Origin: Loxodes magnus
Taxonomy: Eukaryota; Ciliophora; Karyorelictea; Loxodida; Loxodidae
Length of the DNA stretch: 64,000 nt
Direction: 5' to 3'
NCBI GenBank assembly: GCA_946699065.1
Contig: CAMPDV010000433.1
Location: forward strand, 186,001-250,000
Numbering within the stretch: position 1 is the first letter of the stretch; the number at the start of each line of letters is the position of its first letter. Shown one piece after another: positions 2,104-63,779 of this stretch. The notes beneath the pieces are model-generated. The model saw nothing but the letters and a program-made list of their open reading frames with translations, was not told the origin of the DNA and searched no databases. Made by a program: the position numbers and the translations under genes.

Positions 2104-5100
2104 ATGATATTTCAACTATTTAATAATCAAATCAAGTAGAAGAAAAAGAATACTGAAAGACAAGAAATATCCATTACGCTTTTTATAATTGTAATTAATA
2201 ATTTCAAAAGAGATACTTCAGGTCATCAACCTTAGCAGGTATTTTTATAAAGTAAAAATGGATAAAATCTATTTAGCCTTGTGACATACAAAAAGAATCT
2301 CGCATAAACAAAAAATTTTAGGAAAAAATAAAAGTATCTACAATTTAGCAGTTCAACGTTAAACAAAATTATCTAAAAGATAGATCATTTTTCCAATTAC
2401 TAGCAATTACATTAATTACAGAAAAAATTAACTTTCTAGGAAGCAAAATAAAATGCAACAGTTACATCAATAGTTAAGATTTAGCTAGTTTTATTATAGC
2501 AGAATCTATAATTTACAGCAAGCAACTAGCGTTAAATGCTTTCAAAGAAAGAATAGTTGAATAATGTTAATTGACATTTAAAGAACTAACTAGAAGCATT
2601 ATAATAAAACTTTGAGATAAAATGAAGGGAATAATAATCTGCACATCAAAGATGAAAATTTCTAAAATTATACCATCAGAGAAAAACGTTATTGGAAAAA
2701 TGTAACTTACTGTCTGAATGCTTAACAGGTAGAAATTTAAGAAATAAATATAAAACAGTAAATTGATGAATTAACTAGAGATAGAAAAAAAAGGAAAATA
2801 ATCTTAGAACTTATACAATGAGACTATAAAAATGTATCAAATTTCATTGCAAACAAATTTTGAATTAGCTATAGTAAGGAGATTAAAGATGAACTTAGTT
2901 TAGAAAGACAAAAAATTAAAATAAATAGAAATTAGAAAACACTAATAATATCGGGATCGCAAAGAATGGAGTAAAAGAAATGAATATGATAAAAAATCGT
3001 TTGATAAGATAAAATAAGAAATAGCCAAAGAATATTTTGATAAAATGGAAATTACGAAGTATCAGACTTCTCCAAGTACTTAGAAATGCAAACAGTCACA
3101 TCTATCTAATGTTTTTCAGCATAAGAATTTTAAAAAAATGTAAATTATATAAAAGAAGGATCAAGGTATGAAGTCGACAAGTTAAGCATATTTACTTGGG
3201 ATAAATCCATAAAAAACTTGAGCAAAAGTGATTAAATACGAACTTCAAAAGAGATTTTTTACAATATGTTAAACAAAGGAACAGCCACTAAGACTTAAAA
3301 TTACATATAAAAAGAAATCATGATTTTGTTTAAGCAAGCTAAACTTAAGAAATGGATTAACGGAGATCTTTAAAAAATCGCTTCAAAGTTATAAAATAGC
3401 GGACTTTTTCTCAGCTAAAATCAGTTCAGCTAATTAGATAGCTAGTTAGCATTTTTCCCCTAACATTATCGAACAGGAATCTGATTCTATTCTAGATGAA
3501 GCAAGCTTAATCTTTGAAAATGAAGTAAAGCTAATGCTAAAGAATAAGTTATAGCAAAAACTAAAGGAAACCTAGAGAAGAAGTATTCAAGAAGAGGAAG
3601 AAGAAAGTGACAGAATTTACTCGACAGCAAAGAAGAATCAATCCCTTAAATTTGGAATAATCGTTTTATTCTAGTTAGTGATTGAATAACAGAACTAGAA
3701 TCTGTTTTTGATAGTTAAATTAAAGTTCTATTAAAAGATTTCCTTAAGAAAAAATTAAAAAGAAACTGAAAAAAATAATCAATAGAAATGTAAAGGTAAC
3801 AAAGTTAAAAGGCAATAAGAAAAGTAACTACTCTTAATCTTCAATCCGTAAAGATTGGAGCTAGTATAATATATCAGCAGTTAAATGAGATGAAAGAGAA
3901 TGAACATAAAGAGAAGCTTTTTGCTGAGAATTATTATGATGGAGATATGAACTTTATTATTAAACTTTAATTGAAAGATTAATAGTACTTCAAATATAAT
4001 GACTTTGAATAATTCACTCAGTAGCTTGTAAATTTGGGAGTTTCTGAGCAAAGGATAAAAAACTTTATAACAAATAAATAATTTTAGGATGAAATATTGA
4101 AGAGCTTAGTAAAAAATAAGAAATAGTCCTGATTGAAGGAACAGCAGAATGCTAAATTAAACCAAATTTTAGATTTCTAACTTGATTAATGGGCAAATGA
4201 TTAAGAAACGATCATAAAGAACTTGCTTAAAATATTATAAAAGTTCTTATTCACAATGAATAACTCTAAAATTCCCTTACATGAAAATACTAGTAGAAGA
4301 ACAGTTCAAAGGAACTCCAAAAGGAGATTAACTATACCTACTCCAATGGATTTTATTCTAAACGTATTTCTAAAAATTAGCAATTTTTAGAAAGTAATGT
4401 GTCTCTTAATCTAGTCTTCGCTCTAGTTTTATTGAATAAAATAAGAATAAACAATAATAAATATGAAAATGCTTAAGAGAAGCTTTAAGATATATAAGCA
4501 GCTGTTTAATGCTTTTCCAATTATTTAGTTATGTCTAATAAAAATATTGTTATGAACCCTGAAGACTTCAACTCTTAATTAGCCTTTAGTCTACTTTCTC
4601 TTGCTACTGGAACTCAAATTCCTATGAATAACAGCTTTTTAAAGACCCGTTTTAGTGATTACTGTGACAAAAGTCTAAAGCAAGAAGTAAAGATCTAAAT
4701 ATTTTAGAATAGCAGAGAAATAATTAATAGATACATGCTTTTAAATCCTTAAACCTGCTATGAAGACTAAATTTCTTGTATGCAGGAATAGGCTGAATCT
4801 GAGTAAGATCATATGAGACTTTCAATAGTGTTTTTAGATTAGATGCATAGAGATATACAAACAAAAAGGAAGGAAGGAATAGAATAGAATAGATTACTAA
4901 TATTCTATATTTGCCAAGGATAAAAGTCAATACGATATAGAGGAATTTGTGAATCATGTCAGAATTCCGTCTAATAACAAATATCTCAAATTCCTGAAGT
5001 CTTTGTGTTAAAATAAAGTAGATGCCTTGACTGATAAATTTAGCAAGTAGATACAATATAAACTGAATTTTAACGAGCAACAGATGACTAGCTATCAGTC

Positions 5101-7649
5101 CTTATGAGGAATTTTAAACTCCCATGATCTTATCAAATCAGAATCAGCTTAAATTATGAGATAATGTTTGTAAAACTTAGCGATGGGATGAAATGTGAAT
5201 ATCTACGCAATAGAATCAGTACTAGCTGTGATTCACTAAAACTATAGTAGCTTGGTGGTAAACGAATTTGCTGAAGATATAACTGCAATCAAAGCCTTCT
5301 TAAAACCTTCTTCTTTTCAATAGAAAACGAATTTGCTAAATAAGACTACACAAGTTTTAAAATATCAGTTTGGCCGTTAGTATGCAAAATGACAGTGAAA
5401 GCTATTAATAGAAGATCTATCATCGCAAAGCTGTTTTTTGCCTTAGTGAATATTTACAGAAAAAAATATGAAGGATGGAAGCTTTTTATAAAGATATTCT
5501 ATACTCATCCAGATAGCAATTAATAAGAAAACTAATAATAACTTTAAATTGCCAAAAGATTCTTTACTTTACTTCGCTTCTTCAACTGACCTATCATCGA
5601 GATCAAGGATTTCCATAAAACTTTTCAGTGAAACTAGTTCATTGCAAACCCTAAGATTGTTTCATTTTCCATGTAATAATTCTTATAAAATGTTATCCAG
5701 GATTCTGACTTAAAAACGTTGGCAACGGAAAAGAATTAAGAAGACTAGATAACAGTAATTGCTTATTGTTTGCAATTAATATTAAACTGCGTTAAGGATG
5801 TTTATTTAAGTAAGATAGGGAAGATGCTTAGCATCTAAAGCTTGGATTTATTTATCTCATTCTATCACTTGCTAACCATTTTTAGGAAGAAAAGAAAGTA
5901 ACTTGAGCTCAATCAAACCCAAAAGCAGCTAATTACCTTCATCCAAAAGCTTAAACCTAATAAATCTCATTATGAAATTACCTCTTTTGTCAAAGCCTTC
6001 CTTATAGCTTGCAACGGTGATATTTAATAGTATCACTTCTTGGAGAGTTGATTTAAGCTTAACTTGTAAGGATATATTACTTTAACTTCTTTAATGAAGT
6101 TCTAAAGCTTAAAGAATTTGAAAGTGTAAGAAATAGCAGAAATGTAAGATGAAAGGAAAGCCGAAAAATTCGATTACATCTAAAAAGCTTGCGAACTTAT
6201 ATTCTACTTACAACTTGATAGTGTCTTGTAAAAGCTTTAGTAATATTAGCTACAAAAGTTCAAAAACAAAAAGCTGAATCCTAGCTAATAAACGTGACTG
6301 TAAGAACTTATAACTGATATTAAGCAGCAAGACAGGAAAATAGATTTTTTGGCAAAAGCGATATCATTTGTGGATCATAAAATACTATTTGAAATAGTAA
6401 AAGAGCATGATAAGCAATTCGATAAAATATAGCAAAAAAGTGAGAAAGCTCATGAACAGATTTACGAACTAATTTTAAATAAAAATGAATTAGATCTCCT
6501 TAGTATTAACAATCTCATTTATCATGTTCTATTCTCAATGATGATAGGAGATATATCTTACAGCTTTAAAGTATGGGAAAAAACAATCAAACTGATGAAT
6601 AATCATTTATTTTAGATGAAGTAATAGTAAATCTACGTAGATGAAGACTACTTCCAATTTCTTTCTGAACTATTTAGAGTAGAGCAAGTGTATTAATAGA
6701 TCCTATAAACTAAGAACAAGAATCTAGCAATAGATTTTATACAGAACATAAAATTGCTTAATTATATTTCTAAGGTAGAATAGATTAAGTTAGAAAAGAA
6801 GCAGGAGGAGACTTTTAAGAACACTTGCTTGATACTGTTCAGCTTTAAAATGAAGCAATATGAAGGAAAGGAAATATTCTAGTGTATATAGAATATAGCT
6901 CTGAATGTAGAAGAAGATATTTTCTAGCAAAAGGTATTCAACTACTTCATGCAGATATTATACTCTAATATACTTATATAAAGCAAATCTATTAAACAAT
7001 AATAAAATGTAATTATCAATGTTTAGCAGGATCAAAAATTGACTGAGGAATAAAAACTATGGCTTACAAGGAATTAAAGTATGTTCAATCAGCAATTTCC
7101 AATAAAGGAGGAAAGCATAATGTAGTTGCTGTAGCTATAAGAACTCATTTAAAATTAAAATACCTAGATAAAGCTTAAGAATAACTAGCATATTATTTTT
7201 AATATATTAGAAACATATTCAAAGTACCTCAAATTACGATTCTAGGAATTATTCATCTAGCTAATGGTTATTATAGTTAGCTGCAGGAGTCTTTTAACTC
7301 TATATGTAACTTCGACTTGGATCTTATTCAAAAAACCCACCTAGCTTTATATAGAATCTAGCAAATTTATGATGAGCAATTTGAAGAGAATTAAGATGAT
7401 GTTTGATTCTTTTAAGCAATTTAGTAAGAGTAATGAAATGATCTTATCAAGAAGTTTAAAGAAGGAATCTGTAATGTTAGAGAGTTATTTGTACTAGTTT
7501 ATTTGGAAGGTAATAGATCAGGAACAGTAGATAAAGACTAATTCAAATGTTTAGTTAAAAGATTAAATTATAATCTTAGCGATCATAGAGTAAATGGAAT
7601 TTTCACCAATGTTAAGCAAAATAATATTCCAGGAAAAGTACTTTGATAA
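2104..7649 (+). pseudogene. Large RyR/IP3R-like or EF-hand coding tract, frame not continuous
   Basis: A long coding-like tract starts at the ATG at 2104 and ends at TAA 7647..7649 after 'NNIPGKVL'. It can be read only by changing frame several times. Recognisable stretches include a helical segment near 4200..4300 with 'NDHKELAQNIIKVLIHNEQL' and another near 5980..6060 with 'FVKAFLIACNGDIQQYHFLE', both loosely like helical repeats of ryanodine/IP3 receptors. Near 7500 there is an EF-hand-like loop, 'GNRSGTVDKDQFKCLVKRL'. Some frame switches are shared with the right arm and some are private; for example an A8 run here near 2783 is A7 there. The tract may be a decayed gene, a gene with unrecognised very short introns, or one affected by homopolymer errors. 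The family assignment is a guess from motif feel. Confidence 0.4.
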
Positions 7650-8431
7650 TTTATTTTATAAAAAACGTCTAAAACATCAAATAGTTTTCTTGATGTGTAT
7701 AATATAAGATTTCGTCTATTTAAGTTCAAATTTAGTTGCATATACATTTTTAAATTCCAAAAAAATCGTTATGTTTTGCATTTTACGTTGTACTCTTTTA
7801 AAATTTTTTTCTTATTAATTCTAGATTTGTTGATAAAAACTGATTATCCCTAAATTTTAGTTTTTGCTAAATTTATGGCTATTAACTTCTAAATTATAAA
7901 AAGCTCAATAATATTAGTCAATTTTTAAAACTCATTAATGATTGTTAATTTTTAAGTGGGATTGTTTCTTGTAAAGAGTATTTTGATACTTTATTCTCTA
8001 ATATATTTTGGATTTAATGTAACTTTCCTTGACTAAATTAGATAAAAAAGATAAATTTCTTATTTTGTTGTTCCTCTATGAAGGTAAAAATGTACTAAAG
8101 TTCTTTTTATTTATATCATTAAAATAATAAAATAGAAGCTGTTTATTTGATTAAAAAACTAAATATATGAATCCATAAAGAAGTTTCCTTTTATTAATTA
8201 AATAAAAATTAGGTTAATTTACACTATCTATTGAATAATCTACTTCCAAAAAGCATACTAAAATAATTAAAATAAAGAAAATTTCCCGCTTTTGAAATAT
8301 TTATAGTTTATTATTAAAATATTATATTTAACTTAAGAGAACTACCTTTATTTAATAGCCTCATTAGCTTAGCTATTATTATTAACCACATTAGTTTGTT
8401 CTAAGCTTTTAAACGTTAGTATATATAATAG
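7650..8431. other. A/T-rich spacer between two plus-strand tracts
   Basis: About 780 bases with no coding-like stretch. It holds a TTTCCCGC motif near 8283 (the E2F-type core), also present in the right arm near 47885. The second half and the start of the next tract are almost identical between the two arms, unlike most flanking DNA. Confidence 0.4.
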
Positions 8432-10914: not shown

Positions 10915-12078
10915 ATGAGACCTATCTGAGAACTAATTAACTAACGTAATTTTCCATAGCTTTAAAAGTCTGATATAGAAGAGATTTAAAAGAAATGCAT
11001 TGATGCTTACAAGTACAGAGCTAGTTTTCTAAGACCTTCAAAAATTAACTAAATCTGTTCTTCCAACATTTCTTAAACCAGCAATCCTAAGGTAATCTCA
11101 CCTTAGATAGTAAATATATATAAATTAAACGATACTATCGATACTACCAAATTAAGTGAGCAACCTTATGAATGATAATCTGATTTTATTGATTTGTAGA
11201 TAAAAAATATCTACACTTTAGATTCAATTACTTTAATTTTTTAAAATTATGGTCAATTTGTCGGATACTAAAGAGATAATTTCTTCAGATATATGTATCT
11301 TCAGGGTACTTAAATTACTCTAAGATACTAAGAAGGGAATCTATTTCCAAAGCCCACTTTAGTAAAATTTTTCCAACTAATGAAAGCATCACTTTTAAAC
11401 TATAAAATAAAGAAAATATAATAGCAATGAGAGTACAAGGAGACGCCAAATCCATACAAAAAATTATAATAGAAGCAGACTAACAAAGAGCTTATTCAAA
11501 TTCTTTGTGATGTAGAATTAAATCTATCAAAGTGACTTGTTAATTTAAAATATTAGTATCGTAAGCAAAGATAAGCATTAACTTCTTTTCATACTTATCT
11601 TCTTTACTTCTCGTGCAAATGCATTCATTCTTACTTTTTCAAACTTCTTCAATTAATTCAAAGGTGTTAACACTATAAAACAGATACTTTCACTTCTTAC
11701 TTTTCTGCTTCTTTTGCTTTTTTTCATCTTCTGCATTTAGAGTGATTTCTATATTTAAATTTTTAAGTTTTTATCAATTTCTTTATTCTTCTTTTAGCAA
11801 GTTCCATTTAAGATTGTAATTAATCATTATAAGGTATTTCAGTCAGAATTTATAATGCTAATATTAACCATCCTGAATGAAGGCTTATCTTTGCCGATCT
11901 TTATCACCGTTGTTCTTGGTATCAATTTTTGTGCGATTAATTGAATTTTTTTATACACTACATTAATTATCTTATCGATTTCGTGAACTCTTATGACATA
12001 AATTTATTTAATTTCTCTAAATATATGTATTTATATGTGTTAATGAAGTTCTGAGTTTAAATTTTTGATAAATACTAA
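10915..12078 (+). CDS. Putative unknown protein, convergent with the surface gene
   Basis: One plausible frame runs from ATG 10915 to the tandem TAA TAA at 12076..12081, 387 codons before the stop. It includes 'EQPYEWQSDFIDLQIKNIY', 'GYQRDNFFRYMYLQGTQITL' and, near the end, 'YVLMKFWVQIFDKY', with several Trp from TGA. The end lies 60 bases from the convergent end of the surface-protein gene, a spacing that fits a compact genome. A second plus-strand frame, continuous with the tract from 8432, also looks coding here ('FIMLILTILNEGLSLPIF'), so the true gene may be a longer one. The right-arm copy has several indels not divisible by three. No family recognised. Confidence 0.3.
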
Positions 12079-12141
12079 TAATATTTATATTTCATTTATA
12101 TTTAATTTATGAATTTATAAATTAAAATATTTGTAGTTTTA

Positions 12142-15100
12142 TTAATATTTTTATAATTAAGAATCTTTTTAGACTTCAATTTGTAATTGTTCATTTCTCT
12201 CATCTTGCCTCTCACTTTCTATAAATATGTTATCACTTTTTTATTCCTAGATTTAAGTTTGATTTTTCTCTCTCCAAACTGATTCATCTATAATCTTAAA
12301 ATCTTGTCCTGCGTTTTGAATTCCAGAAGTAGTAGTATTATGGATATCTCTCGATGTTGTATTTTGTTCGATTTATACTTACAAACTCTAAACTCTTACT
12401 TACTCAGCTTTTTATTTTCTTTCTTAATAAATGCTATAAATAAATAAAGCCAAAGCGATAATATAATTAGATATTAGTATAACCATAGTTACTACTACAA
12501 TTAAAAAGGCTAAATATTCTAGTTTGTTGCTAATTGGATGAATGTAAAATGAAAACTGTATAAGTAGAATAAAAATCCAAATTTCGTTGATAATAGTTAT
12601 TATAAATATAATTTTGCTATTCAAAGGTTTATATTTTATCAAATATCAAATCCACATCAGCTATAAAAATGAAGCTAATGAAATTTAAAGTTCTGGCTGA
12701 TTTTAACCCATGATCATGATGAAAACAACTACTATTCTTCTTACAAGAAAAATAGCATAGAAGTATATAACTTAAGGTCTATTAGTTTCTTTAAGCTCAT
12801 CAAATAGATTTTTAAATCTTTATTCTTATTACTTCTTTGCCATTATTAGCTCCATTGTTGCTTCTTAAGCATTAAATATTGCAAGATTTTATAAATAGTA
12901 TTTCTTTATCTAAATGAATACTGTACAACAGAAAATGATCATTAGAATCTGTATATTAAAGCTTACTAAAAAGAAATATGAGATAAAAGTATTCATAGTA
13001 ACGTAAAAATCTTCTAGACTTTAAAATCTAATCTATAATAAAATAGAAATCATCAAACCTAAAGCAACATTCATGCCTGTTCTTATAAAAGCTGAATATC
13101 TATAATTCTCATACGTTTTTTCCATATATTTTCCTATCTTATTATTCTTATCTTTTAATTATCAAATTATATAAAAAACTAAATAGCATATACTAATACT
13201 AAACAATTCACAAGCTGCATTTGAAATAAAAGTAGATGTATTAATACCTTAGATTTATAGGTTATATCATATTTTTTATTAAGAATCAATTTTAGAATCT
13301 AAATTTAAGCATAAAAAGTCTATAATTATTTAACTGATTTCTTTATTTATTGTATATAGAGATTATAAAACATTAGGCATCATTACAGATATGAAGCCTG
13401 TTATTTTCATCATTTCATCTAAAAACTAAGCAAATCAAAACGATTAACAACAATTGGAGGAACCATAACTCACAACTAATTTAGAATATCCAAATGCAGC
13501 AGTCATAGAAGCCAAAATTAATTTTATATTTCAAGATATTTTTAAAAATTTTTCTGAAAAATTTGTTAAGTTTAAGTCCTTTATAATATTTTAATCTATA
13601 TCCTTTTAATTAGAATCAAATATATCTAAGCATTTATTTTAAGTCAATTTCTTAGGATTTGAGCATTAAACACAGCCATCGTTTGTACATGCTGCACAGA
13701 AGGGATCGAAATCAGAACAAGAATGACATAAGTTATCTGCTCCAATATAGTATCTTAAATTACAGCTGGTGCATTGAGATCCTGCTTGATTACATTATAC
13801 GCAATGAGACAAAACAACGTCGCAATTCTGACATATTCCGTTTGTATCGCTATCTTATTATGTTACATCGCAAGTATCTAAGCATTTATTTTAAGTCAAT
13901 TTCTTAGGATTTGAGCATTAAACACAGCCATCGTTTGTACATGAGGCACAGAAAGGATCGAAATCAATGCAAGAATGGCATAAGTTATCTGCTCCAATAT
14001 AGTATCCTAAATTGCAACTGGTGCATTAAGATCCTGCTTGATTACAGTATACGCAATGAGATAAAACAACGTCGCAATTCTGACATATTCCGTTTGTATC
14101 GCTATCTTATTATGTTACATCGCAAGTATCTAAACATTTATTTTAAGTCAATTTCTTAGGATTTGAGCATTAAACACAGCCATCGTTTGTACATGCTGCA
14201 CAGAAGGGATCGAAATCAGAACAAGAATGACATAAGTTATCTGCTCCAATATAGTATCTTAAATTACAGCTGGTGCATTGAGATCCTGCTTGATTACATT
14301 ATACGCAATGAGATAAAACAACGTCGCAATTCTGACATATTCCGTTTGTATCGCTATCTTATTATGTTACATCGCAAGTATCTAAACATTTATTTTAAGT
14401 CAATTTCTTAGGATTTGAGCATTAAACACAGCCATCGTTTGTACATGAGGCACAGAAAGGATCGAAATCAATGCAAGAATGGCATAAGTTATCTGCTCCA
14501 ATATAGTATCCTAAATTGCAACTGGTGCATTAAGATCCTGCTTGATTACAGTATACGCAATGAGATAAAACAACGTCGCAATTCTGACATATTCCGTTTG
14601 TATCGCTATCTTATTATGCTACATCGCAAGTATCTAAACATTTATTTTAAGTCAATTTCTTAGGATTGATGCATTAAATACAGCCATCGTTTGTGCATGA
14701 GGCACAGAAAGGATCGAAATCAATGCAAGAATGGCATAAGTTATCTGCTCCAATATAGTATCCTAAATTGCAACTGGTGCATTAAGATCCTGCTTGATTA
14801 CATTATACGCAATGAGATAAAACAACGTCGCAATTCTGACATATTCCGTTTGTATCGCTATCTTATTATGCTACATCGCAAGTATCTAAGCATTTATTTT
14901 AAGTCAATTTCTTAGGATTGATGCATTAAATACAGCCATCGTTTGTGCATGAGGCACAGAAGGGATCGAAATCAATGCAAGAATGGCATAAGTTATCTGC
15001 TCCAATATAGTATCCTAAATTGCAACTGGTGCATTAAGATCCTGCTTGATTACATTATACGCAATGAGATAAAACAACGTCGCAATTCTGACATATTCCG

Positions 15101-18100
15101 TTTGTATCGCTATCTTATTATGCTACATCGCAAGTATCTAAGCATTTATTTTAAGTCAATTTCTTAGGATTGATGCATTAAATACAGTTAATACCGTCTT
15201 CTGTGCAGTTTTTGCAAAACTAAATTATCTAACTGCATGGTTGACATACAAAATCTAAGTCATTATCTTATTCAGATTAAATGCAATTAATCAAACATTA
15301 TTAATTAGTTAGCTTGAAAGGATAATAGCAATTAAGACAAATTGTTCCATCACTCGAACAATTAGAGCAATTTTTGATTGAATTATTGCAGAAACTACAC
15401 TCAGATGGAGGAATTTAATAAGTATCTTCAGGACAATCCTAGTAACATTATCCTAAAAATAATTTCTTTAGTTTTTAGCATTTTAAACAATTTAGACCAT
15501 CATCAGAACAAAGTTCACAAAATTAAATTTAATCAGAGCAAAGCTAACATTACTTTTCATTATTAATTCAGAATCCACTTTAACAAACTAAGCATTCAAC
15601 TTACAAGGAATTACATTCTAAACAATTTAGAAGTATTTAATCGCATGGCTCGCAAATAGAATTTCCGTCATAATCCTACTCGTCTGAAGTGCAGTTATCA
15701 AGACATCTATTTTAAGATAATTTCTTAGGGAAATAGCACGAATTGCATATGGAATTATTTTATGAACATGACGAACAAAACTCTAGCGACTAAGAGCAAA
15801 GAGAACATAAAGTTTCATAACTCTCTTCATTAATAGTCTAAATAAATGAATTTTTATTTCTATCATACAATCAAAAATTGTTACTAACTTGTTTTTCAAA
15901 ATTTAAATAAAAATTGCTATTTTCGAATTTTGTAAAATACTAACTTTATAAATAGGAGGAACCATTGATTTCTTACCTAGGAGCGAGATAATTTGTTAAG
16001 TTATTTGAATCTAAATTTAAAACGAATATTAATAGTACATCTCCAAATTGATGATAATTTTAATAAAAGGCACATCCTTAAACTATAGAAATATTATTAT
16101 TTAAAAAATCTGAAGAACCAAAAAATCAAATTAAATTATTTTCGGCACTTAATTAATCGATAATAAAGAAATTTTATTATTAAAATAACAGTATTCCTTA
16201 ATTTTTAAAAGTCTGGTCTTAATAAAAAGAAACATTATAAATCTCTAAAATAAAAGATATTTTCAAAAAGGCAAATCATCCACCACTCCTAGTAATACCA
16301 GCGAAAATCTAAGATTAAAAAACCTGGTTTATTATAGAGTAATCTGTTAAATAAAAAACGCCTCCATATTATTGAGCTGAGTTTTGTTGAAATGAGCAAT
16401 TATCGATTCTGCTTATATAAGAGTTCTGTAATTAGGCAAATCCTCCTCTACTAGCGTTATTTGCGATCATTTTAGATTGGACTATCAAATCTATTCTTGA
16501 ATAGTTTGTTAAATAAAAAATGCCTCCATATTATTGAGCTGAGTTTTGTTGAAATGTGCAATTATCGATTTTACTTATATAAGAGTTTTGTAATTAGGCG
16601 AATCCTCCTTTACTGGCGTTATTTGCAATCATTTGAGATTGAACTATCAAATCTATTCTTGAGAAGTCTTCTAAATAAAAAATTGCTCCGGATGATTGAG
16701 CTGAGTTTTGTTGAAATGAGCAATTTTCAATACTACTTATATTAGAGTTTTGTAATAAGGCGAATCCTCCGATTCTAGCGTTATTGGCAAATATTTAAGA
16801 TTGAACTATCAAATCTATTCTTGAATAGTTTGTTAAACAAAAAACGCCTCCATATTATTGAGCTAAGTTTTGTTGAAATGAGCAATTATCGATTCTATTT
16901 ATATAAGAGTTCTGTAATTAGGCGAAACCTCCTCTACTAGCGTTATTTGCGATTATCTGAGATTGAAGTATCAAATCTATTCTTGAATAGTTTGTTAAAT
17001 AAAAAATTGCTCCTGTTTATTGTGCTGAGTTTTGTTGAAATGAGCAATTTTCAATACTACTTATATTAGAGTTTTATAGAGAGGCGAATCCTCCGATTCT
17101 AGCGTTATTGGCAAATATTTAAGATTGTATTATCATATCTATTCTTGAATAATCTGCTAAGTTAAAAACGGCTCCGTAAGATTGTGCTGAGTTTTGTTGA
17201 AATGAGCAATTTTCGATTCTACTTATATAAGAGTTTTGTAAATAGGTGAATCCTCCAATAAAAGCGTTATTGGCAAATATTTGAGATTGAACTATCAAAT
17301 CTATTCTTGAATAGTTTGTTAAATAAAAAACGCCTCCTATTTATTGTGCTGAGTTTTATTAAAATGTGCAATTATCGATTCTAATTATATAAGAGTTTTG
17401 TAATTAGGCGAATCCTCCTTTACCGGCGTTATTTGCAATCATTTGAGATTGAACTATCAAATCTATTCTTGAGAAGTCTTCTAAATAAAAAATTGCTCCT
17501 GTTTATTGTGCTGAGTTTTGTTGAAATGAGCAATTTTCAATACTACTTATATTAGAGTTTTATAGAGAGGCGAATCCTCCGATTCTAGCGTTATTGGCAA
17601 ATATTTAAGATTGTATTATCATATCTATTCTTGAATAATCTGCTAAGTTAAAAACGGCTCCGTAAGATTGTGCTGAGTTTTGTTGAAATGAGCAATTTTC
17701 GATTCTACTTATATAAGAGTTTTGTAAATAGGTGAATCCTCCAATAAAAGCGTTATTGGCAAATATTTGAGATTGAACTATCAAATCTATTCTTGAATAG
17801 TTTGTTAAATAAAAAACGCCTCCTATTTATTGTGCTGAGTTTTATTAAAATGTGCAATTATCGATTCTAATTATATAAGAGTTTTGTAATTAGGCGAATC
17901 CTCCTTTACCGGCGTTATTTGCAATCATTTGAGATTGAACTATCAAATCTATTCTTGAGAAGTCTTCTAAATAAAAAATTGCTCCTGTTTATTGTGCTGA
18001 GTTTTGTTGAAATGAGCAATTTTCAATACTACTTATATTAGAGTTTTATAGAGAGGCGAATCCTCCGATTCTAGCGTTATTGGCAAATATTTAAGATTGT

Positions 18101-19755
18101 ATTATCATATCTATTCTTGAATAATCTGCTAAGTTAAAAACGGCTCCGTAAGATTGTGCTGAGTTTTGTTGAAATGAGCAATTTTCGATTCTACTTATAT
18201 AAGAGTTTTGTAAATAGGTGAATCCTCCAATAAAAGCGTTATTGGCAAATATTTGAGATTGAACTATCAAATCTATTCTTGAATAGTTTGTTAAATAAAA
18301 AACGCCTCCTATTTATTGTGCTGAGTTTTATTAAAATGTGCAATTATCGATTCTAATTATATAAGAGTTTTGTAATTAGGCGAATCCTCCTTTACCGGCG
18401 TTATTTGCAATCATTTGAGATTGAACTATCAAATCTATTCTTGAGTAGTCAGTTAAATAAAAAACACCTCCTGATTATTGAGCTGAGTTTTGTTGAAATG
18501 AGCAATTTTCAATACTACTTATATTAGACTTTTATAGAGAGGCGAATCCTCCTCTACTAGCGTTATTTGCGATCATTTGAGATTGAACTATCAAATCTAT
18601 TCTTGAATAGTTTGTTAAATAAAAAACGGCTCCGTAAGATTGTGCTGAGTTTTATTAAAATGTGCAATTATCGATTCTACTTATATAAGAGTTTTGTAAA
18701 TAGGCGAAACCTCCTTTACTTGCATTATTTGCAATTATTTGAGATTGAACTATCAAATCTATTCTTGAGTAGTCAGTTAAATAAAAAACGCCTCCATATT
18801 ATTGAGCTTAGTTTTGTTGAAATGAGCAATTATCGATTCTACTTATATAAGAGTTCTGTAATTAGGCGAATCCTCCTTTACTGGCGTTATTTGCAATCAT
18901 TTGAGATTGAACTATCAAATCTATTCTTGAGTAGTTTGTTAAATAAAAAACGCCTCCATAAGATTGTGCTGAGTTTTGTTGAAATGAGGAATTATCGATT
19001 CTACTTATATAAGAGTTTTGTAAATAGGCGAATGCTCCAAATCTAGCGTTATTTGCTATCATTTGAGATTGAACTATCAAATCTATTCTTGAATAGCTTG
19101 TTAAATAAAAAACGGCAGCGTAAGATTGAGCTGAGTTTTATAAAAACGAGCAATTGCTAATTTTAGTTATGATTGTATTTATAAGATAAGCAAAACTGTA
19201 TTTCATTTCAGTAACTTAAATATCTTCCAAACTTATTTAAGAGTTATTTGCCTTTATGAGATATTTTTCTTATTATTACCATCCTATTATTTTTATATTT
19301 TATATTACTAAATATTCTTTTTATATAAAAATTTAAATTGTGCTCTTAATAATTTATATTACTGCTATTTTGGAATTATTTAAACACATTTCTTATTAGT
19401 ATTCCTATTAAGAACAATTTTCATATGTCTTTATAGTGATATTTTTTTCTCTTTATCCTTAGAATCCTCCTCTTACTATTTCACAACTATCCATGCATTA
19501 TGTACAGTCCAAACAATCCATTAAATGCTTATGTGGAGACATTAAGACCGTGTGAAGTTTACCTTCTTCTAGATTGTATAATGCTTAAGATATTGAAATT
19601 AGCGGGAATTCTTTTGTTCCTATTGATTAGTTCAGATTAAGAGCTTGAAACACTTCAGGTGTTGTAACATATACTTCATTTGACAGGGCAACTATGCTGT
19701 AATTTTGGAAAATAAATAAGGTAGATAGAAAAATCATTCTAATCTTCACTTCCAT
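12142..19755 (-). CDS. Giant cysteine-rich beta-helix surface membrane protein
   Basis: The ATG at 19755 starts 'MEVKIRMIFLSTLFIFQNYS', a signal peptide. The span to the tandem TAA TAA (12144..12139) is exactly 2538 codons. Order: N-terminal Cys-bearing domain (to residue ~190); 54-residue repeats with 'NNASKGGFAYL' and 'SYGGVFYL', typical of parallel beta-helices (~190-1140); linker; CxxC-rich furin/growth-factor-receptor-like region (~1315-2040) whose last part is six 84-residue repeats; about seven membrane spans (~2040-2440); Gln-rich cytoplasmic tail. This build is common in large ciliate surface proteins; ligand and role are unknown. Nine in-frame TGA codons (on the plus strand at 16276, 16126, 15871, 15568, 13531, 13435, 13267, 13162, 12646) sit at Trp-like positions, so the gene is intact only under TGA=Trp. 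Domain calls rest on repeat and Cys patterns seen by eye. Confidence 0.85.
13640..15170 (-). repeat. 252-bp coding tandem array, six Cys-rich units, left arm
   Basis: Six units of 252 bases (84 residues) run tail to head. Each encodes a furin-like block with paired cysteines, for example 'CNQAGSQCTSC' and 'CAACTNDGCVQC'. Units 1 and 3 are nearly identical, units 2 and 4 are nearly identical, and units 5 and 6 are nearly identical. The history is therefore duplication of a 504-bp dimer plus duplication of a third type. The right arm has a single unit at this place (about 42287..42538). Confidence 0.93.
16330..19180 (-). repeat. 162-bp coding tandem array, about 17 units, left arm
   Basis: A landmark (gcgttatt or a close variant) recurs at 16454, 16616, 16778, 16940, 17102, 17264, 17426, 17588, 17750, 17912, 18074, 18236, 18398, 18560, 18722, 18884 and 19046, every interval exactly 162 bases. 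Each unit encodes 54 residues, including 'SRIDNCSFQQNSAQ' and a Gly-Gly turn. No indel breaks the period, which points to selection on the reading frame. The middle nine units form a higher-order repeat (see the next entry). Confidence 0.95.
17000..18460 (-). repeat. 486-bp higher-order repeat inside the 162-bp array
   Basis: Three unit types follow each other in the same order three times. Landmarks 17102/17588/18074 share one variant, 17264/17750/18236 a second, and 17426/17912/18398 a third. The 486-bp triplets are nearly identical to each other, much closer than neighbouring units are, so they arose by recent tandem duplication of a three-unit block. The right arm lacks this structure. 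Confidence 0.9.
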
Positions 19756-19960
19756 TATTATTAACTTATAAAAATTCGTTAAAATACTTGCTTTTTGATA
19801 ATTTTTATTTAAAAAATGTCGAAATTTTAATTTAATAAATAATATAAAGATTGATTTCTTTGCAAGACTAAATGAGAGTTCCACATAATTCTCTTTTTAT
19901 TGCTGTTTATGATTTTCTTTTTATTTTCAAGTCTTTTGCTTCATTATTTATGTAAAGTAT
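19756..19960. promoter_or_regulatory. Probable 5' flank of the surface-protein gene
   Basis: About 200 A/T-rich bases lie between the start of the surface gene and the end of the next minus-strand tract. The partner region in the right arm is about 38115..38315. No specific promoter motif was recognised; the call rests on position only. Confidence 0.3.
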
Positions 19961-20745
19961 TAAGATGCCTATCAGTTCTAGTCAGATCACCGTTTTAAAT
20001 AAGCTGCTTCATTTGCAACTGTTCTCCTTCATCTTTTATTTATCTATTCTCTAGGATTAATTCAGTTTCTTCATTTTATTTTTTGCTTTACTTTAATCTC
20101 AATGATGCTTCGCTTCACTTTCTTCTGTAAATGTCTTCTTTCTAATCGCAGCTAAATCTTTTGAATTGCTCTTATTCTTTAGTCAATAATTTTTCTTGAA
20201 TTTTTATAATATAAGCATCTCTTTTATAAATGTCACTAGTTCTCACAGTAATGTCATCACTTCTTTATATATTTGATTGATCATTGCACAATTGAATCTG
20301 CTTATTTTATCTTCATCTTTTCTGCTTAATTTTCTATATTTTTGAAAACTCATCACTTTTTTTTATACTACATCTCCAAGTTTTGATATTTCTTACCTCT
20401 TTTCAATCTAAAAATTTTAATATGCTCGAAGCTCTCCTAGTTGATTCTTCTCATTTTTAAATTGTTTTATTAATGCTATAATAAATCTCTTATTTTTTGG
20501 CTTTCCTTTTAAATACTATGATTTCTTTCTAGTGATTAGAAGCTTTAAGCGCCAGTCGTTGAATGGCAATTTCCTTTTTAAAAAATTTTGATTTAAGTTC
20601 TTTTTGTGTTAATATATTAGAATCTTTTCTTTAACCAAGAGGTATTTATTACTGAGGAGAATAAAAGTTTTGGTATTTTTGCTTCATCTACTATTTGTCT
20701 AAGGCTTTTTTTTTCTGCTTTACCCAATAGAAAGCTAGGAACAAG
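19960..20745 (-). pseudogene. Lysine/glutamine-rich coiled-coil-like tract, left copy
   Basis: On the minus strand this reads from about 'GKAEKKSLRQIVDEAKIPKL' (near 20720) into a basic, helical, low-complexity sequence ending near 19960. The right-arm and R3 copies (from about 37350 and 63780) begin the same way and then diverge. There are many substitutions and several indels between copies, so at least one copy is probably not functional. It lies upstream of, and in the same orientation as, the surface gene. No family recognised. Confidence 0.3.
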
Positions 20746-28890: not shown

Positions 28891-28919
28891 TGTGAAACTT
28901 AAGTGTTAATATAAATGTT

Positions 28920-30479: not shown

Positions 30480-30849
30480 GTTGTATTTAATTCTTCTTAA
30501 TGCCTTTTAATTATCTATTGTTATATTTAGTAAATAGTAAATATTATAAATTTAATATTTTATTCTCTATTTTTAATTAAGATAAACCTTTATTTTCATG
30601 AAATTTATTTAAGTAGATAATTTTTTGCCTCTTGCTTTTCTGGTTTTATTCAATCATTTTTCCTTTAAGGTAATTAAGATCTAATTTTGATTGTTAATTG
30701 GTCAAACTATCTTGTAAATTCTTAATATCAAGTTTTTAGGTGAATCATAATAAAAAAGTTAATATATGAAGGTTGATTAGCAATTAGTCTTTATTTATAT
30801 CATCTGAAAACTAGCAATGCTTTAGTTCAATAACCTAATCATTTATTAA

Positions 30850-31237: not shown

Positions 31238-31239
31238 AA

Positions 31240-37330: not shown

Positions 37331-37339
37331 AAATCTTGT

Positions 37340-38115: not shown

Positions 38116-38899
38116 TACATAAATAATGAAGCAAAAGACTTGAAAATAAAAATAATAAAATAAAAAGAAATAAAAAGAGAATGATGAGGAGCTTTCATTG
38201 AGAGCTGCAACGCAAATAGCTTTAAAATTATTTATTAATTTAAAATTTTAACTATTTTTTAAATAAAAAATTATCAAAAGCAAGTATTTTAACGAAATTT
38301 TATAAGCTAATAATAATGGAAATGAAGATAAGAATAATTTTTCTATCTACCTTATTTCTTTTCCAAAATTACAGTATAGTTGCCCTGTCAAATGAAGTAT
38401 ATGTTACAACACCTGAAGTGTTTCAAGCTCTTAATCTGAACTAATCAATAGGAACAAAAGAATTCCCGCTAATTTCAATTTCATAAGCATTATACAATCA
38501 ATAAGAAGGTCAATCTCACGTGGTCTTTATGTCTCCACATAAACATTTAATGAATTGTTTGAATTGTACATATTGCATGGATAGTTGTGAAATATTGAGA
38601 GGAGGAGCATTAGGATAAAAAGAAAAAAATATCACTATAAAGACATATGAAAATTGTTCTTAATAGGAATACTAAATAGAAATGTGCTTAAATAATTCCA
38701 AAGTAGCAGTAATATAAATTATTAAAAGCACAATTTAAATTTTTATATAAAACGAATATTTAGTTATATAAAATATAAAAATAATAGGATGGTAATAATA
38801 AGAAAAATATCTCATAAGAGCAAACAACTCTTAAATAAGTTTGGAAGATATATAAGTTACTGAAATGAAATACAGTTTTGCTTATCTTATAAATACAAT

Positions 38900-40920
38900 C
38901 ATAATTAAAATAAAAAATTGCTCATTTCAAGAAAACTAAGCTTTATAATAAGGAGGAGTTTTTTATTTAACAAAAGACTCAAGAATAGATTTGTTAGTCC
39001 AATCTACAATAATCGCAAATAACGCCAACAACGGAGGATTCGCCTACTTATAAAAGTCAAATATAAGTAGAATTGAAAATTGCTCATTTTAATAAAACTA
39101 AGCTAAATAATAAGGAGGAGTTTTTTATTTAGAAACCGACTCAAGAATAGATTTGTTAGTCCAATCTACAATAATCGCAAATAACGCCAGCAAAGGAGGA
39201 TTCGCCTTATTAGAAACCTCTTATATAAGTAGAATAGAAAATTGCTTATTTCAAGAAAACTAAGCTCAATCATTTGGAGGTTTTTTATTTAAATACAGAC
39301 TCAAGAATAGATTTTTTAGTCCAATCAACAATAATCGCAAATAACGCCAGCAAAGGAGGATTCGCCTTATTAGAAACCTCTTATATAAGTAGAATAGAAA
39401 ATTGCTCATTTTAATAAAACTAAGCTAAATAATGAGGAGGAGTTTTTTTTTTAAATATCGACTCAAGAATAGATTTGTTAGTTCAATCTACAATAATCGC
39501 AAATAATGCCAGCAACGGAGGATTCGCCTTATTAGAAACCTCTTATATAAGTAGAATAGAAAATTGCTCATTTAAAGAAAACTAAGCTTTATAATAAGGA
39601 GGAGTTTTTTATTTAACAAAAGACTCAAGAATAGATTTGTTAGTCCAATCTACAATAATCGCAAATAACGCCAGCAACGGAGGATTCGCCTTATTAGGAA
39701 TCTCTTATATATGTAGAATAGAAAATTGCTCATTTAAAGAAAACTAAGCTTTATAATAAGGAGGAGTTTTTTATTTAACAAAAGACTCAAGAATAGATTT
39801 GTTAGTTCAATCTACAATAATCGCAAATAACGCCAACAACGGAGGATTCACCTACTTATGAAAGTCAAATATAAGTAGAATAGAAAATTGCTCATTTAAA
39901 GAAAACTAAGCTTTATAATAAGGAGGAGTTTTTTATTTAACAAAAGACTCAAGAATAGATTTGTTAGTTCAATCTACAATAATCGCAAATAACGCCAGCA
40001 AAGGAGGATTCGCCTTATTAGAAACCTCTTATATAAGTAGTATTGAAAGTTGCTCATTTCAAGAAAACTAAGCTCAATCATTTGGAGGTGCTTTTTATTT
40101 AACAAAAGACTCAAGAATAGATTTTTTAGTCCAATCAACAATAATCGCAAATAACGCCAGCAACGGAGGATTCACCTTATTAGAAACCTCTTATATAAGT
40201 AGAATTGAAAATTGCTCATTTTAATAAAACTAAGCTAAATAATGAGGAGGAGTTTTTTTTTTAAATATCGACTCAAGAATAGATTTGTTAGTTCAATCTA
40301 CAATAATCGCAAATAATGCCAGCAACGGAGGATTCGCCTTATTAGAAACCTCTTATATAAGTAGAATAGAAAATTGTTCATTTAAAGAAAACTAAGCTTT
40401 ATAATAAGGAGGAGTTTTTTATTTAACAAAAGACTCAAGAATAGATTTGTTAGTCCAATCAACAATAATCGCAAATAACGCCAACAACGGAGGATTCACC
40501 TTATTAGAAACCTCTTATATAAGTAGAATAGAAAATTGCTCATTTTAATAAAACTAAGCTTTGAAATAAGGAGGAGTTTTTTTTTATTTAACAAAAGACT
40601 CAAGAATAGATTTGTTAGTTCAATCTACAATAATCGCAAATAACGCCAGTAACGGAGGATTCACCTACTTATGAAAGTCAAATATAAGTAGAATTGAAAA
40701 TTGCTCATTTCAAGAAAACTAAGCTTTATAATAAGGAGGAGTTTTTTATTTAACAAAAGACTCAAGAATAGATTTTTTAGTCCAATCAAAAATAATCGCA
40801 AATAAAGCCAGCAACGGAGGATTCACCTTATTAGAAACCTCTTATATAAGTAGAACTGAAAATTGCTTATTTCAAGGAAACTAAGCTTTATAATAAGGAG
40901 GAGTTTTTTATTTAACAGAT
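38900..40920 (+). repeat. 162-bp coding tandem array, about 12 units, right arm
   Basis: The landmark gcaaata recurs at 39015, 39177, 39337, 39499, 39661, 39823, 39985, 40147, 40309, 40471, 40636 and 40798. Intervals are 162 except one of 160 and one of 165. Unit sequences are more alike within this array than to the left array ('NNASNGGFALLETSYISRI' type), showing separate homogenisation since the duplication. Two units carry TGA where left-type units have a Tyr or Phe codon (at 39428 and 40241), and two carry it where sister units have TAA (39857, 40668). Confidence 0.9.
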
Positions 40921-42286
40921 TTCTCTATTATAAATTTGTTTTTTTAATCTCAGATTTTTGCTGGTATTACTATAAATGGTGGATGATTCGCTTTTTTAAA
41001 AGTTTCTTTTATTTTTGAGATTTATAATGTTTCTTTTTATTAATACCAGACTTTTCAAAATTAAGGAATACTGTTTTTTTAATAATAAAATTTCTTTATT
41101 ATTGATTAATTAAGTACCGAAAATAATTTTATTTGATTTTTTGGTTCTTCAGATTTTTTAAATAATAATATTTCTATAGTTTAAGGATGTGCCTTTTATT
41201 AAAATTATCATCAATTTGGAGATGTACTACTATTATTCGTTTTAAATTTAGATTCAAATAACTTAACAAATTATCTCGCTCCTAGGTAAGAAATCAATGG
41301 TTCCTCCTATTTATAAAGTTAGAATTTTACAAAATTCGAAAATAGCAATTTTTATTTAAATTTTGAAAAGCAAGTTAGTAACAATTTTTGATAGTATGAT
41401 AAAAATAAAAATTCATTTATTTAGACTATTAATGAAGAGAGTTATGAAACTTTATGTTCTCTTTGCTCTTAGTCGCTAGAGTTTTGTTCTTCTTGTTCGT
41501 AAAATAATTCTATATGCAATTCGTGTTTTTCCCCTAAGAAATTATCTTAAAATAGATGTCTTGATAACTGCACTTCAAACGAGTAGGATTATGACGGAAA
41601 TTCGATTTGCGAGCCATGCAATTAAATTCTTTCAAATTGTTTAGAATGTAATTCCTTGTAAGTTGAATGCTTAGTTTGTTAAAGTGGATTTTGAATTAAT
41701 AATAAAAAGTAATGTTAGCTTTGCTCTGATTAAATTTAATTTTGTGAGCTTTGTTCTATTGATGGTCTAAATTGTTTAAAATGCTAAAACCAAAAGAAAT
41801 TGTTTTTAGGATAATGCTACTAGAATTGTCCTGAAGATACTTATTAAATTTCTCCATCTTAGTGTAGTTTCTGCAATAATTCAATCAAAAATTGCTAAAA
41901 TTGTTCGAGTGATGGAACAATTTGTCTTAATTGCTATTATCCTTTCAAGCTAACAAATTAATAATGCTTAACTAATTGCATTTAATCTGAACAGGATTAA
42001 GACTAAGATTTTATATGCCAACCATGCAGTTAGATTATTTAGTTTTGCGACATCTGCACAGAAGACGGTTTAAACTGCAGATAGTGCTCACTTTCAAAAA
42101 AATTGACTTAAAATTAATGTTTAGATAACTGCGATTCTAGTTAATAGGATATAGATTAAAATAATATATGTGAGAATTGCTAGCTAGTTATTCCATTTTG
42201 CTAGTTCTGCGCTCAAGAAATAAGAAATGATTCATAAGTTGTAATTTGCAATGTATGCTAGAGCCCAAAGGTTTTGACCTTGAATG

Positions 42287-42538
42287 AATGTTTAGATATT
42301 TGCGATGTAACATAATAAGATAGCGATACAAACAGAATATGTCAGAATTGCGAAGTTGCTTTGTCTCATTGCGTATAATGTAATCAAGCAGGATCTCAAT
42401 GCACCAGTTGCAATTTAGGATACTATATTGGAGCAGATAACTTATGCCATTCTTGCATTGATTTCGATCCTTTCTGTGCCGCATGCACAAACGATGGCTG
42501 TATTTAATGCTTAAATCCTAAGAAATTGACTTAAAATA
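42287..42538 (+). repeat. Single 252-bp Cys-rich unit, right arm
   Basis: One complete copy of the 84-residue furin-like unit that is present six times in the left arm. A diverged relative lies just before it (42035..42286), encoding 'CENCQLVIPFCQFC'. The contrast of one copy with six shows expansion in the left arm or loss here. Confidence 0.9.
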
Positions 42539-44096
42539 AATGTTTAGATAACTATGATTCTAGTTAATAGGATATAGATTAAAATAATATAAGTAACTTA
42601 AACTTAACAAAATAATAAGAAAGCTATGTAAAATCATCATAAAATATAAAATTAATTGCAACTTCTATAACTGCTGCATTAGGATATTCCACATTAGTTG
42701 TGAGTTATGGCTCCTCCAATAGTTGTTAATAGTTTTGGGTTGCTTAGTATTTAGATGAAATGATAAAAATAACAGGCTTCATATCAGTAATGATGCCTAA
42801 TGTTTTATAAGCTCTATATACATTAAACAAAGATATTAAATAGATAATTATAGACTTTTTATGCTTTAACTTAGATTCTAAAATTGATTCTTAATAAAAA
42901 ATATGATATAACCTATAAATCTAAGGTACTAATACATCTACTTTTATTTCAAATGCAGCTTGTGAATTACTTAGCATTAGTATATGCTGTTTAGTTTTTT
43001 ATATAATTTGATAATTAAGAGATTTGAATAATAAAATAGGAAAATATATGGAAAAAACGTATGAGAATTATAGATATTCAGCCTTTATAAGAACAGGCAT
43101 GAATGTATCTTTAGGTTTGATGATTTCTATTTTATTATAGATTAGATTTTAAAGCCTAGAAGCTTTATACGTTACTATGAATACTTTTATCTCATATTTC
43201 TTTTTAGTAAGCTTTAATATACAGATTCTAATGATCATTTTCTGTTGTACAGTATTCATTTAGATAAAGAAATACTATTTATAAAATCTTGCAATATTTA
43301 ATGCTTAAGAAGCAACAATGGAGCTAATAATGGCAAAGAAGCAATAAGAATAAAGATTTAAAAATCTATTTGATGAGCTTAAAGAAACTAATAGACCTTA
43401 AGTTATATACTTCTATGCTATTTTTCTTGTAAGAAGAATAGTAGTTGTTTTCATCATGATCATAGGTTAAAATCAACCAGAACTTCAAATTTCATTAGCT
43501 TCATTTTTATAACTGATATGGATATGATATTTGATAAAATATAAACCTTTGAATAGCAAAATTATATTTATAATAACTATTATCAACGAAATTTGGATTT
43601 TTATTCTACTTATACAGTTTTCATTTTACGTTCATCCAATTAGCAACAAACTAGAATATTTAGCCTTTTCAATTGTAGTAGTAACTATGGTTATACTAAT
43701 ATCTAATTATATTATCGCTTTGGTTTTAATTGTTTATAGCATTTATTAAGAAAGAAAATAAAAAGCTGAGTAAGTAAGAGTTTAGAGTTTGTAAGTATAA
43801 ATCGAACAAAATACAACATCAAGAGATATTCATAATACTACTACTTCCAGAATTCAAAACGCAGGATAAGATTTTAAGCGTATAGATGAATCAATTTGAA
43901 GAGAGTAGCATAATCAAACTTAAATCTAAGAATAAAAAAGTGATAATATATTGTCAAAAAGTAAGAGGAGAATAAGGAGAAATAAAAAATTACAAATTGA
44001 AATCTAAAAAAATTCTTAATTATAAAAATATTAATAAAATACAAATATTTTAATTTATAAATTCATAAATTAAATATAAATGAAATATAAATATTA

Positions 44097-48530: not shown

Positions 48531-51500
48531 AGTACTATTCCTGGAATATTATTTTGCTTAACATTGGTGAAAATTTCATTTACTCTATAATCACTAAGAT
48601 TATAATAATCTTTTAACTAAACATTTGAATTCGTCTTTATCTACTGTTCCTGATCTATTACCTTCCAAATAAACTAGTACAAGTAACTCTCTAACATTAC
48701 AGCTTCCTTCTTTAAACTTCTTGATAAAATCAGTTCATTACTCTTACTAAATTGTTTAAAAGAATCAAACATCATCTTAATTCTCTTCAAATTGCTCATC
48801 ATAAATTTGCTAGATTCTATATAAAGCTAGGTGGGTTTTTTGAATAAGATCCAAGTCGAAGTTACATATAGAGTTAAAAGACTCCTGCAGCTAACTATAA
48901 TCACCATTAGCTAGATGAATAATTCCTAGAATCGTAATTTGAGGTACTTTGAATATGTTTCTAATATATTAAAAAATAATATGCTAGTTATTCTTAAGCT
49001 TTATCTAGGTATTTTAATTTTAAATGAGTTCTTATAGCTACAGCAACTACATTATGCTTTCCTCCTTTATTGGAAATTGCTGATTGAACATAGCTTTAAT
49101 TCCTTGTAAGCCCAGCCATAGTTTTTATTCCTCAGTCAATTTTTGATCCTGCTAAACATTGATAATTACATTTTATTATTGTTTAATAGATTTGCTTTAT
49201 ATAAGTATATTAGAGTATAATATCTGCATGAAGTAGTTGAATACCTTTTGCTAGAAAATATCTTCTTCTACATTCAGAGCTATATTCTATATACACTAGA
49301 ATATTTCCTTTCCTTCATATTGCTTCATTTTAAAGCTGAACAGTATCAAGCAAGTGTTCTTAAAAGTCTCCTCCTGCTTCTTTTCTAACTTAATCTATTC
49401 TACCTTAGAAATATAATTAAGCAATTTTATGTTCTGTATAAAATCTATTGCTAGATTCTTGTTCTTAGTTTATAGGATCTATTAATACACTTGCTCTACT
49501 CTAAATAGTTCAGAAAGAAATTGGAAGTAGTCTTCATCTACGTAGATTTACTATTACTTCATCTAAAATAAATGATTATTCATCAGTTTGATTGTTTTTT
49601 CCCATACTTTAAAGCTGTAAGATATATCTCCTATCATCATTGAGAATAGAACATGATAAATGGGATTGTTAATACTAAGGAGATCTAATTCATTTTTATT
49701 TAAAATTAGTTCGTAAATCTGTTCATGAGCTTTCTCACTTTTTTGCTATATTTTATCGAATTGCTTATCATGCTCTTTTACTATTTCAAATAGTATTTTA
49801 TGATCCACAAATGATATCGCTTTTGCCAAAAAATCTATTTTCCTGTCTTGCTACTTAATATCAGTTATAAGTTCTTACAGTCACGTTTATTAGCTAGGAT
49901 TCAGCTTTTTGTTTTTGAATTTTTGTAGCTAATATTACTAAAGCTTTTACAAGACACTATCAAGTTGTAAGTAGAATATAAGTTCGCAAGCTTTTTAGAT
50001 GTAATCGAATTTTTCGGCTTTCCTTTCATCTTACATTTCTGCTATTTCTTACACTTTCAAATTCTTTAAGCTTTAGAACTTCATTAAAGAAGTTAAAGTA
50101 ATATATCCTTACAAGTTAAGCTTAAATCAACTCTCCAAGAAGTGATACTATTAAATATCACCGTTGCAAGCTATAAGGAAGGCTTTGACAAAAGAGGTAA
50201 TTTCATAATGAGATTTATTAGGTTTAAGCTTTTGGATGAAGGTAATTAGCTGCTTTTGGGCTTGATTGAGCTCAAGTTATTTTCTTTTCTTCCTAAAAAT
50301 GGTTAGCAAGTGATAGAATGAGATAAATAAATCCAAACTTTAGATGTTAAGCATCTTCCCTATCTTACTTAAATAAACATCCTTAACGCAGTTTAATATT
50401 AATTGCAAACAATAAGCAATTACTGTTATCTAGTCTTCTTAATTCTTTTCCGTTGCCAACATTTTAAAGTCAGAATCCTGGATAACATTTTATAAGAATT
50501 ATTACATGGAAAATGAAACAATCTTAGGGTTTGCAATGAACTAGTTTCACTGAAAAGTTTTATGGAAATCCTTGATCTCGATGATAGGTCAGTTGAAGAA
50601 GCGAAGTAAAGCAAAGAATCTTTTGGCAATTTAAAGTTATTATTAGTTTTCTTATTAATTGCTATCTGGATGAGTATAGAATATCTTTATAAAAAGCTTC
50701 CATCCTTCTTATTTTTTTCTGTAAATATTCACTAAGGCAAAAAACACCTTTACGATGATAGATCTTCTATTAATAGCTTTCACTGTCATTTTGCATACTA
50801 ACGGCCAAACTGATATTTTAAAACTTGTGTAGTCTTATTTAGCAAATTCGTTTTCTATTGAAAAGAAGAAAGTTTTAAGAAGGCTTTGATTGAAGTTATA
50901 TTTTCAGCAAATTTCGTTTTCCATCAAGCTACTATAGTTTTAGTGAACCACAGCTAGTACTGATTCTATTGCGTAGATATTCACATTTCATCCTATCGCT
51001 AAGTTTTACAAATATTATCTCATAATTTAAACTGATTCTGATTTGATAAGATCATGGGAGTTTAAAATTCCTCATAAGGACCGATAGCTAGTCATCTGTT
51101 GCTCGTTAAAATTCAGTTTATATTGTATCTACTTGCTAAATTTATCAGTCAAGGCATCTACTTTATTTTAACACAAAGACTTCAGGAATTTGAGATATTT
51201 GTTATTAGACGGAATTCTGACATGATTCACAAATTCCTCTATATCGTATTGGCTTTTATCCTTGGCAAATATAGAATATTAGTTAATCTATTATATTCCT
51301 TCCTTCCTTTTTGTTTGTATATCTCTATGCATCTAATCTAAAAACACTATTGAAAGTCTTATATGATCTTACTCAGATTCAGTCTATTCCTGCATACAAG
51401 AAATTTAGTCTTCATAGCAGGTTTAAGGATTTAAAAGCATGTATCTATTAATTATTTCTCTGCTATTCTAAAATATTTAGATCTTTACTTCTTGCTTTAG

Positions 51501-63760: not shown

Positions 63761-63779
63761 TTGTTCCTATCTTTCTTGG

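Follow-up and report, generated by a model that had tools for sequence, protein, structure and literature searches.

Evidence that TGA, along with TAA and TAG, may be read as sense within a duplicated surface-protein gene

Known codes that reuse stop codons

The nuclear code of Condylostoma magnum is NCBI table 28, and in the Blepharisma-type code TGA is Trp and TAA and TAG are stops. Codes without a dedicated stop codon are known from few lineages. UAA and UAG are reported to encode Gln and UGA to encode Trp in C. magnum and Parduczia (PMC4967479), and karyorelicts are described as using UGA both for Trp and as the sole stop, with UGA and UAA, but not UAG, depleted in Loxodes in the approximately 20 codons ahead of UGA stops (PMC11441545). 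All three codons are also sense in Amoebophrya sp. ex Karlodinium veneficum, where UGA is a stop as well (PMC6394959). The UGA frequencies that we compare span 0.042-0.120% of codons over three species, with 0.042% in C. magnum and 0.120% in Parduczia (PMC4967479), and the part of the literature available to us, to which all of these statements are limited, gives none for Loxodes.

We analysed a window of 64 kb (GC 24.4%, AT 75.6%) that contains two copies of a long surface-protein gene (gene 1) and a second long frame (gene 2). The reading that we favor, with a probability of roughly 0.8, is that it belongs to a ciliate-like nuclear genome reading TAA and TAG as Gln and TGA as Trp within genes. 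The code itself is of a known type, published for karyorelicts and Condylostoma as the original prediction had said (PMC4967479, PMC11441545, in the parts available), and its unusual part is the frequent TGA. The locus resembles table 27 (Loxodes and Parduczia) in having UAA and UAG as Gln, UGA probably as Trp in genes, and a credible gene end at a TGA after a stop-free tail; it resembles C. magnum in having 64 of 64 codons as sense and a credible gene 1 end at a TAA cluster with a drop in GC. TGA accounts for 20 of 3828 codons (0.52%) in the left copy of gene 1 and candidate gene 2 together, and for 9 of 2538 (0.35%) in gene 1 alone and 0.85% in the gene 2 frame, against the frequency cited for Parduczia; in contrast to that cited for C. 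magnum, TGA is here the majority TGR codon.

Other codes fit less well. As in Amoebophrya, all three stop codons are sense, but the parasite fraction in the available part of that study was cut at at least 58% AT (PMC6394959), unlike the AT content of this window. Table 6 likewise has UAA and UAG as Gln, but its TGA stop is contradicted by the frame kept past TGAs shared between the copies. The Blepharisma-type code would have TAA and TAG absent from genes, whereas the gene 1 frame contains 143 TAA and 16 TAG.

Conservation of the frame beyond in-frame TGA codons

An approximately 26.4-kb unit is present three times in the window, as unit A (1-26039, inverted), unit B (30481-56907) and the start of unit C (56907-64000), with B and C in tandem; this triple unit may be a true feature of the genome or a product of the assembly. 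Gene 1 lies in units A and B as the left and right copies (Table 1), and the part of C within the window ends before the gene. The gene 1 product has a hydrophobic N-terminus, followed by beta-helix-like 54-aa repeats, Cys-rich 84-aa repeats and a helix-rich C-terminal domain; a putative signal peptide and membrane topology were judged from sequence. The left-copy protein as a whole matches Chlam_PMP (E 1.3e-10) with no individual stretch significant alone, and the right copy (E 0.0016) falls under the cut-off. The Cys-rich array (13663-15186) matches Pfam DUF4983 (E 1.2e-8, 35.8 bits, cut-off 26.4). AlphaFold gives a helix-rich C-terminal domain at low confidence (mean pLDDT 39.4) and a poor model of the array end (mean pLDDT 33.4). 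Homologues were found neither for the membrane domain in viral contigs, genome contigs or PDB sequences, nor for the N-terminus in viral contigs, nor for the whole protein in phage records.

Within the 64-kb window ARAGORN found no tRNA genes, no Rfam family reached its gathering score, and under table 11 a single stop-to-stop frame of at least 150 codons is open. Nothing reached a Pfam family cut-off in the six frames of 1-12302 and 19800-32702, the scan having left out 32.7-38 kb and 54.4-64 kb (mostly copies), and gene finding by codon usage, with too weak a signal, added no further genes. Divergence between copies is highest (about 80-89% identity) in the ectodomain and the stretch upstream of the start (15000-21400 versus 36700-42200), and surface-protein diversification is one possible reason for that of the ectodomain; positions 1-13899 are 96% identical to the partner copy. 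The core of the C-terminal domain (12540-13160 and 43010-43630) encodes near-identical protein in the two copies, with more variation to both sides. Units A and B differ by one substitution and no indels in 8001-9000, and by 23 and 24 in the 500 bases flanking it on each side.

Table 1. Positions in the window of the genes, arrays, codons and candidate gene ends discussed in the text.
Feature	Position	Strand	Remarks
Gene 1, left copy	12142..19755	-	ATG at 19755, final codon at 12142; frame of 2538 codons
Beta-helix-like array, 162-bp (54-aa) units	16345..19155	-	TRF: 17.4 copies, 0% indels between units
Cys-rich array, 252-bp (84-aa) units	13623..15187	-	TRF: 6.2 copies
First in-frame TGA, common to both copies	16276..16278	-	right-copy partner at 40984
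TGA shared with right copy (41692)	15568..15570	-	by-eye match to Tyr of the 84-aa repeat: CqSGF#INNEKqCqLC / CNLGYYIGADNLCHSC
TGA facing right-copy TAA (42640)	13531..13533	-	copy alignment; poor fit to a conserved Trp
TGA facing right-copy TGG (42736)	13435..13437	-	copy alignment
TGG facing right-copy TGA (43897)	12274..12276	-	copy alignment
Candidate TAA-cluster end, Condylostoma-like (table 28-like)	12139..12171	-	five TAA in eleven codons, GC drop
Candidate TGA end, karyorelict-like (table 27-like)	11839..11841	-	first in-frame TGA past the TAA cluster
Gene 1, right copy	38316..44032	+	inverted relative to left copy; 12 in-frame TGA, 4 TGG
Gene 2 frame, copy A	3690..7650	+	seven indels versus copy B; candidate TGA end at 7644
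Gene 2 frame, copy B	48600..52481	-	candidate coding; 11 TGA and 5 TGG in 1290 codons counted

The left copy of gene 1 contains 159 TAA or TAG codons, 9 TGA and 4 TGG, and a codon count confirmed to the exact length the prediction that it is one uninterrupted frame if TAA, TAG and TGA are all sense. The in-frame TGAs lie at 16276, 16126, 15871, 15568, 13531, 13435, 13267, 13162 and 12646. At seven of these the right copy has TGA as well, which dates them to before the duplication if they were not spread by gene conversion. Table 6 would confine TGA to gene ends, whereas all nine are internal. Near 39280 the array of the right copy contains a 2-nt frameshift, so that frame 2 of this copy is followed until about 39279 and frame 0 beyond; the claimed absence of array indels holds for the left copy. 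Since the nucleotide alignment of the arrays crosses this frameshift, we restricted tests of constraint to non-array codons and compared array codons by repeat unit as well.

Past the first shared TGA, 818 non-array codons (16275-15208 and 13530-12142, excluding the Cys-rich array and 15207-13531) have 54 synonymous changes among 142 differences, where 35.1 are expected, and none of 5000 shuffles gave as many. The result is similar when TGA and TGG codons are removed (52 of 140, expected 34.7, p 0.0002) and for each segment separately (p 0.0005 for 16275-15208 and p 0.027 for 13530-12142); the membrane part alone (13161-12142; 17 of 51, p 0.10) is not significant. The proposed comparison of dN/dS between the arms gives 0.29 and 0.48 for the two segments, compared with 0.44 in the N-terminus, which has no TGA. 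On this strand the shifted frames give 0.68-1.07, and four of the six reverse-frame values (0.45-0.55) are as low as in the gene frame. The sole indel in the non-array part of gene 1 (3238 bases) is one of 3 nt at 12264; none is non-triplet, whereas the rate in the flank predicts 9.6 (P 7e-5), or 11.5 with gene 2 left out, the flank being 1-12141, in which 36 of 40 indels are non-triplet. The gene 1 frame also has less TGA than any of its five alternatives (0.8-3.0%).

Because seven TGAs are shared and the differences downstream of them respect the frame, a sense reading of TGA in gene 1, as in table 27, is well supported. Preservation of the frame past the shared TGAs is similar to that in the N-terminus, where there is no TGA, and this requires that ribosomes pass TGA. 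The same observations weigh on the alternative that TGA is the sole stop (table 6) and that both copies are dead genes whose nonsense codons were gained before the duplication. The right-copy frameshift, non-triplet indels in gene 2, and four right-only array TGAs opposite Ser, Thr or Gln codons would suit dead genes, and a late spread of TGAs by gene conversion could weaken the counter-argument. However, dead genes should not show frame-respecting differences past shared TGAs, a lack of non-triplet indels outside the gene 1 arrays, TGG or TGA in the other copy at five of five TGG sites, or a TGA frequency below that of other frames, and we regard this alternative as distinctly unlikely.

An ordinary ciliate code would also suffice if the TGAs lay within short spliced introns. 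Six of the nine left-copy TGAs fall within a GT-AG stretch whose length is a multiple of three between 15 and 45 nt, but such stretches also cover 45% of the left-copy codons scanned. The TGA at 13267 is uncovered in both copies, those at 15871 and 13531 in the left copy, and that at 12646 in the right, where the scan skipped the partners of 13531 and 13435, which are not TGA. Between 13530 and 12142, moreover, the proteins of the two copies align without a break across the TGA sites. We consider this explanation extremely improbable and rejected splicing as the source of the TGAs, because introns cannot remove every one of them.

Residues at TGA, TAA and TAG

Both TGG/TGA exchanges quoted in the original prediction are real (13435 and 12274, Table 1). 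Outside the arrays the changed TGA pairs are these two and one TGA/TAA pair, and wherever one copy has TGG (five codons), its counterpart has TGG or TGA. At the repeat column that contains the TGA at 40984, 26 of 28 counted units have Phe, the column counts leaving out one left unit at the array end. Two other TGAs that had been placed where an aromatic residue is expected, 15568/41692 and 12646/43525, are TGA in both copies, and the first matches Tyr by eye. In the right array, four TGAs without a left counterpart (39433, 39859, 40243 and 40672) face TCA, TAA, ACA and CAA on direct alignment, none of them aromatic. When compared by repeat unit, two of the four stand in column 11 alongside Tyr, Phe, Gln, Ile, Thr and Ser, and the other two (one via a one-codon shift) in column 45, where Gln and Glu prevail and a few units have Leu or Gly. 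A fifth apparent array TGA pair of this kind (14782) was discarded as a misalignment, being out of the right-copy frame.

The TGAs opposite Ser, Thr or Gln codons thus speak against Trp, as does the TAA facing 13531, and Trp is the most likely residue by virtue of the two TGA/TGG exchanges and the internal repeats, among them the Phe and Tyr columns. A sense TGA read as another residue, for example Cys, Arg or Gln, would account for the TGA/TAA pair, the array TGAs opposite TCA, TAA, ACA and CAA, and the one Gln/Glu repeat column. Outside the arrays, however, no TGA stands opposite a codon for Cys, Arg, Gly or Leu, and two of the three changed TGA pairs are TGG; with Phe in the 40984 column and Tyr by eye at 15568 as well, we find a residue other than Trp very unlikely. 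The TGA share of TGR codons is 9/13 in the left copy of gene 1, 12/16 in the right and 11/16 in the gene 2 frame, similar to the A/(A+G) ratios of 0.60-0.95 in other purine-ending pairs. Gene 2 read out of frame gives 32/43 and 43/49, and the ratio is therefore consistent with Trp but not decisive. Searches of viral, phage, genome-contig and PDB sequences found no outside homologue for alignment.

The proposed reading of TAA and TAG as Gln is supported because of the repeat columns. In the seven left-array columns with TAA or TAG the commonest partner is Gln (208 pair counts), with Ser at 113 and Tyr at 35. Among the 17 TAA/TAG changes outside the arrays, a CAR codon is the partner in 4, making Gln the largest single residue; 3 are interchanges of TAA and TAG and 10 are scattered.

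Gene ends and the second long frame

The gene 1 frame continues beyond 12142 to the TGA at 11839, for 2639 codons including that TGA. None of the 54 codons before it is TAA, TAG or TGA (P 0.006, given the 9.1% density outside the arrays); there is one longer free run, of 73 codons, that ends at another non-array gene 1 codon. The right copy reaches this TGA only via a 1-nt indel. Upstream of it, the three 60-base blocks that span 12180-12001 show a drop in GC, to 0.07-0.17, and the copies differ by a 1-nt indel at 12136, just past the TAA cluster. An end at TAA suits the GC drop, the five TAA and this indel, and on the evidence of the sequence both the TGA at 11839 and the TAA cluster are credible stops for gene 1. 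The prediction that no codon is a dedicated stop accordingly has internal TAA, TAG and TGA as sense in its favor, but follows only if the genes are expressed as read, and it has two credible gene ends to reckon with. It is unlikely, in our view, that TGA is an unambiguous Trp codon used more than TGG, with genes ending at TAA or TAG that are elsewhere Gln. Such an arrangement, with TGA fully out of termination, is that of Blastocrithidia as far as the available account of it goes, and the locus would be a ciliate counterpart if genes here end at TAA or TAG.

Gene 2 is an open frame and a candidate gene. We do not regard it as shown to be coding, because the 52 aligned differences between copies A and B give a dN/dS of 0.81 (no constraint) and none of the seven indels in 3690-7650 has a length divisible by three; two that lie almost side by side, of 5 and 1 nt, together make six. 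The other frames have TGA at 0.9-3.3% of codons, above the frequency in the gene 2 frame. Its candidate TGA end in copy A is preceded by 34 stop-free codons and is TGC in copy B, in a stretch where indels separate the two copies. We found no convincing GT-AG introns where the frame changes upstream of 3.7 kb. Neither gene 2 nor the upstream frames matched a Pfam family at cut-off, and gene 2 has no relative in PDB sequences or viral contigs. Near the end of the frame, 7300-7640 encodes VYLEGNRSGTVDKDQF, which we take to be EF-hand-like; Pfam gave no support for this label.

With TAA and TAG read as Gln and TGA as Trp within genes, a Trp tRNA would read TGA, and termination would depend on how close a codon lies to the end of the transcript, a mechanism described in karyorelicts and Condylostoma. 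The terminating codon may be TGA, as in table 27, or any of TAA, TAG and TGA, as in table 28. Gene finders that treat TGA as a fixed stop would fragment gene 1. If these genes are used, TGA as the majority TGR codon would demand efficient TGA decoding, and a genome with such TGA usage would be a good test case for how ribosomes discriminate stop from sense.
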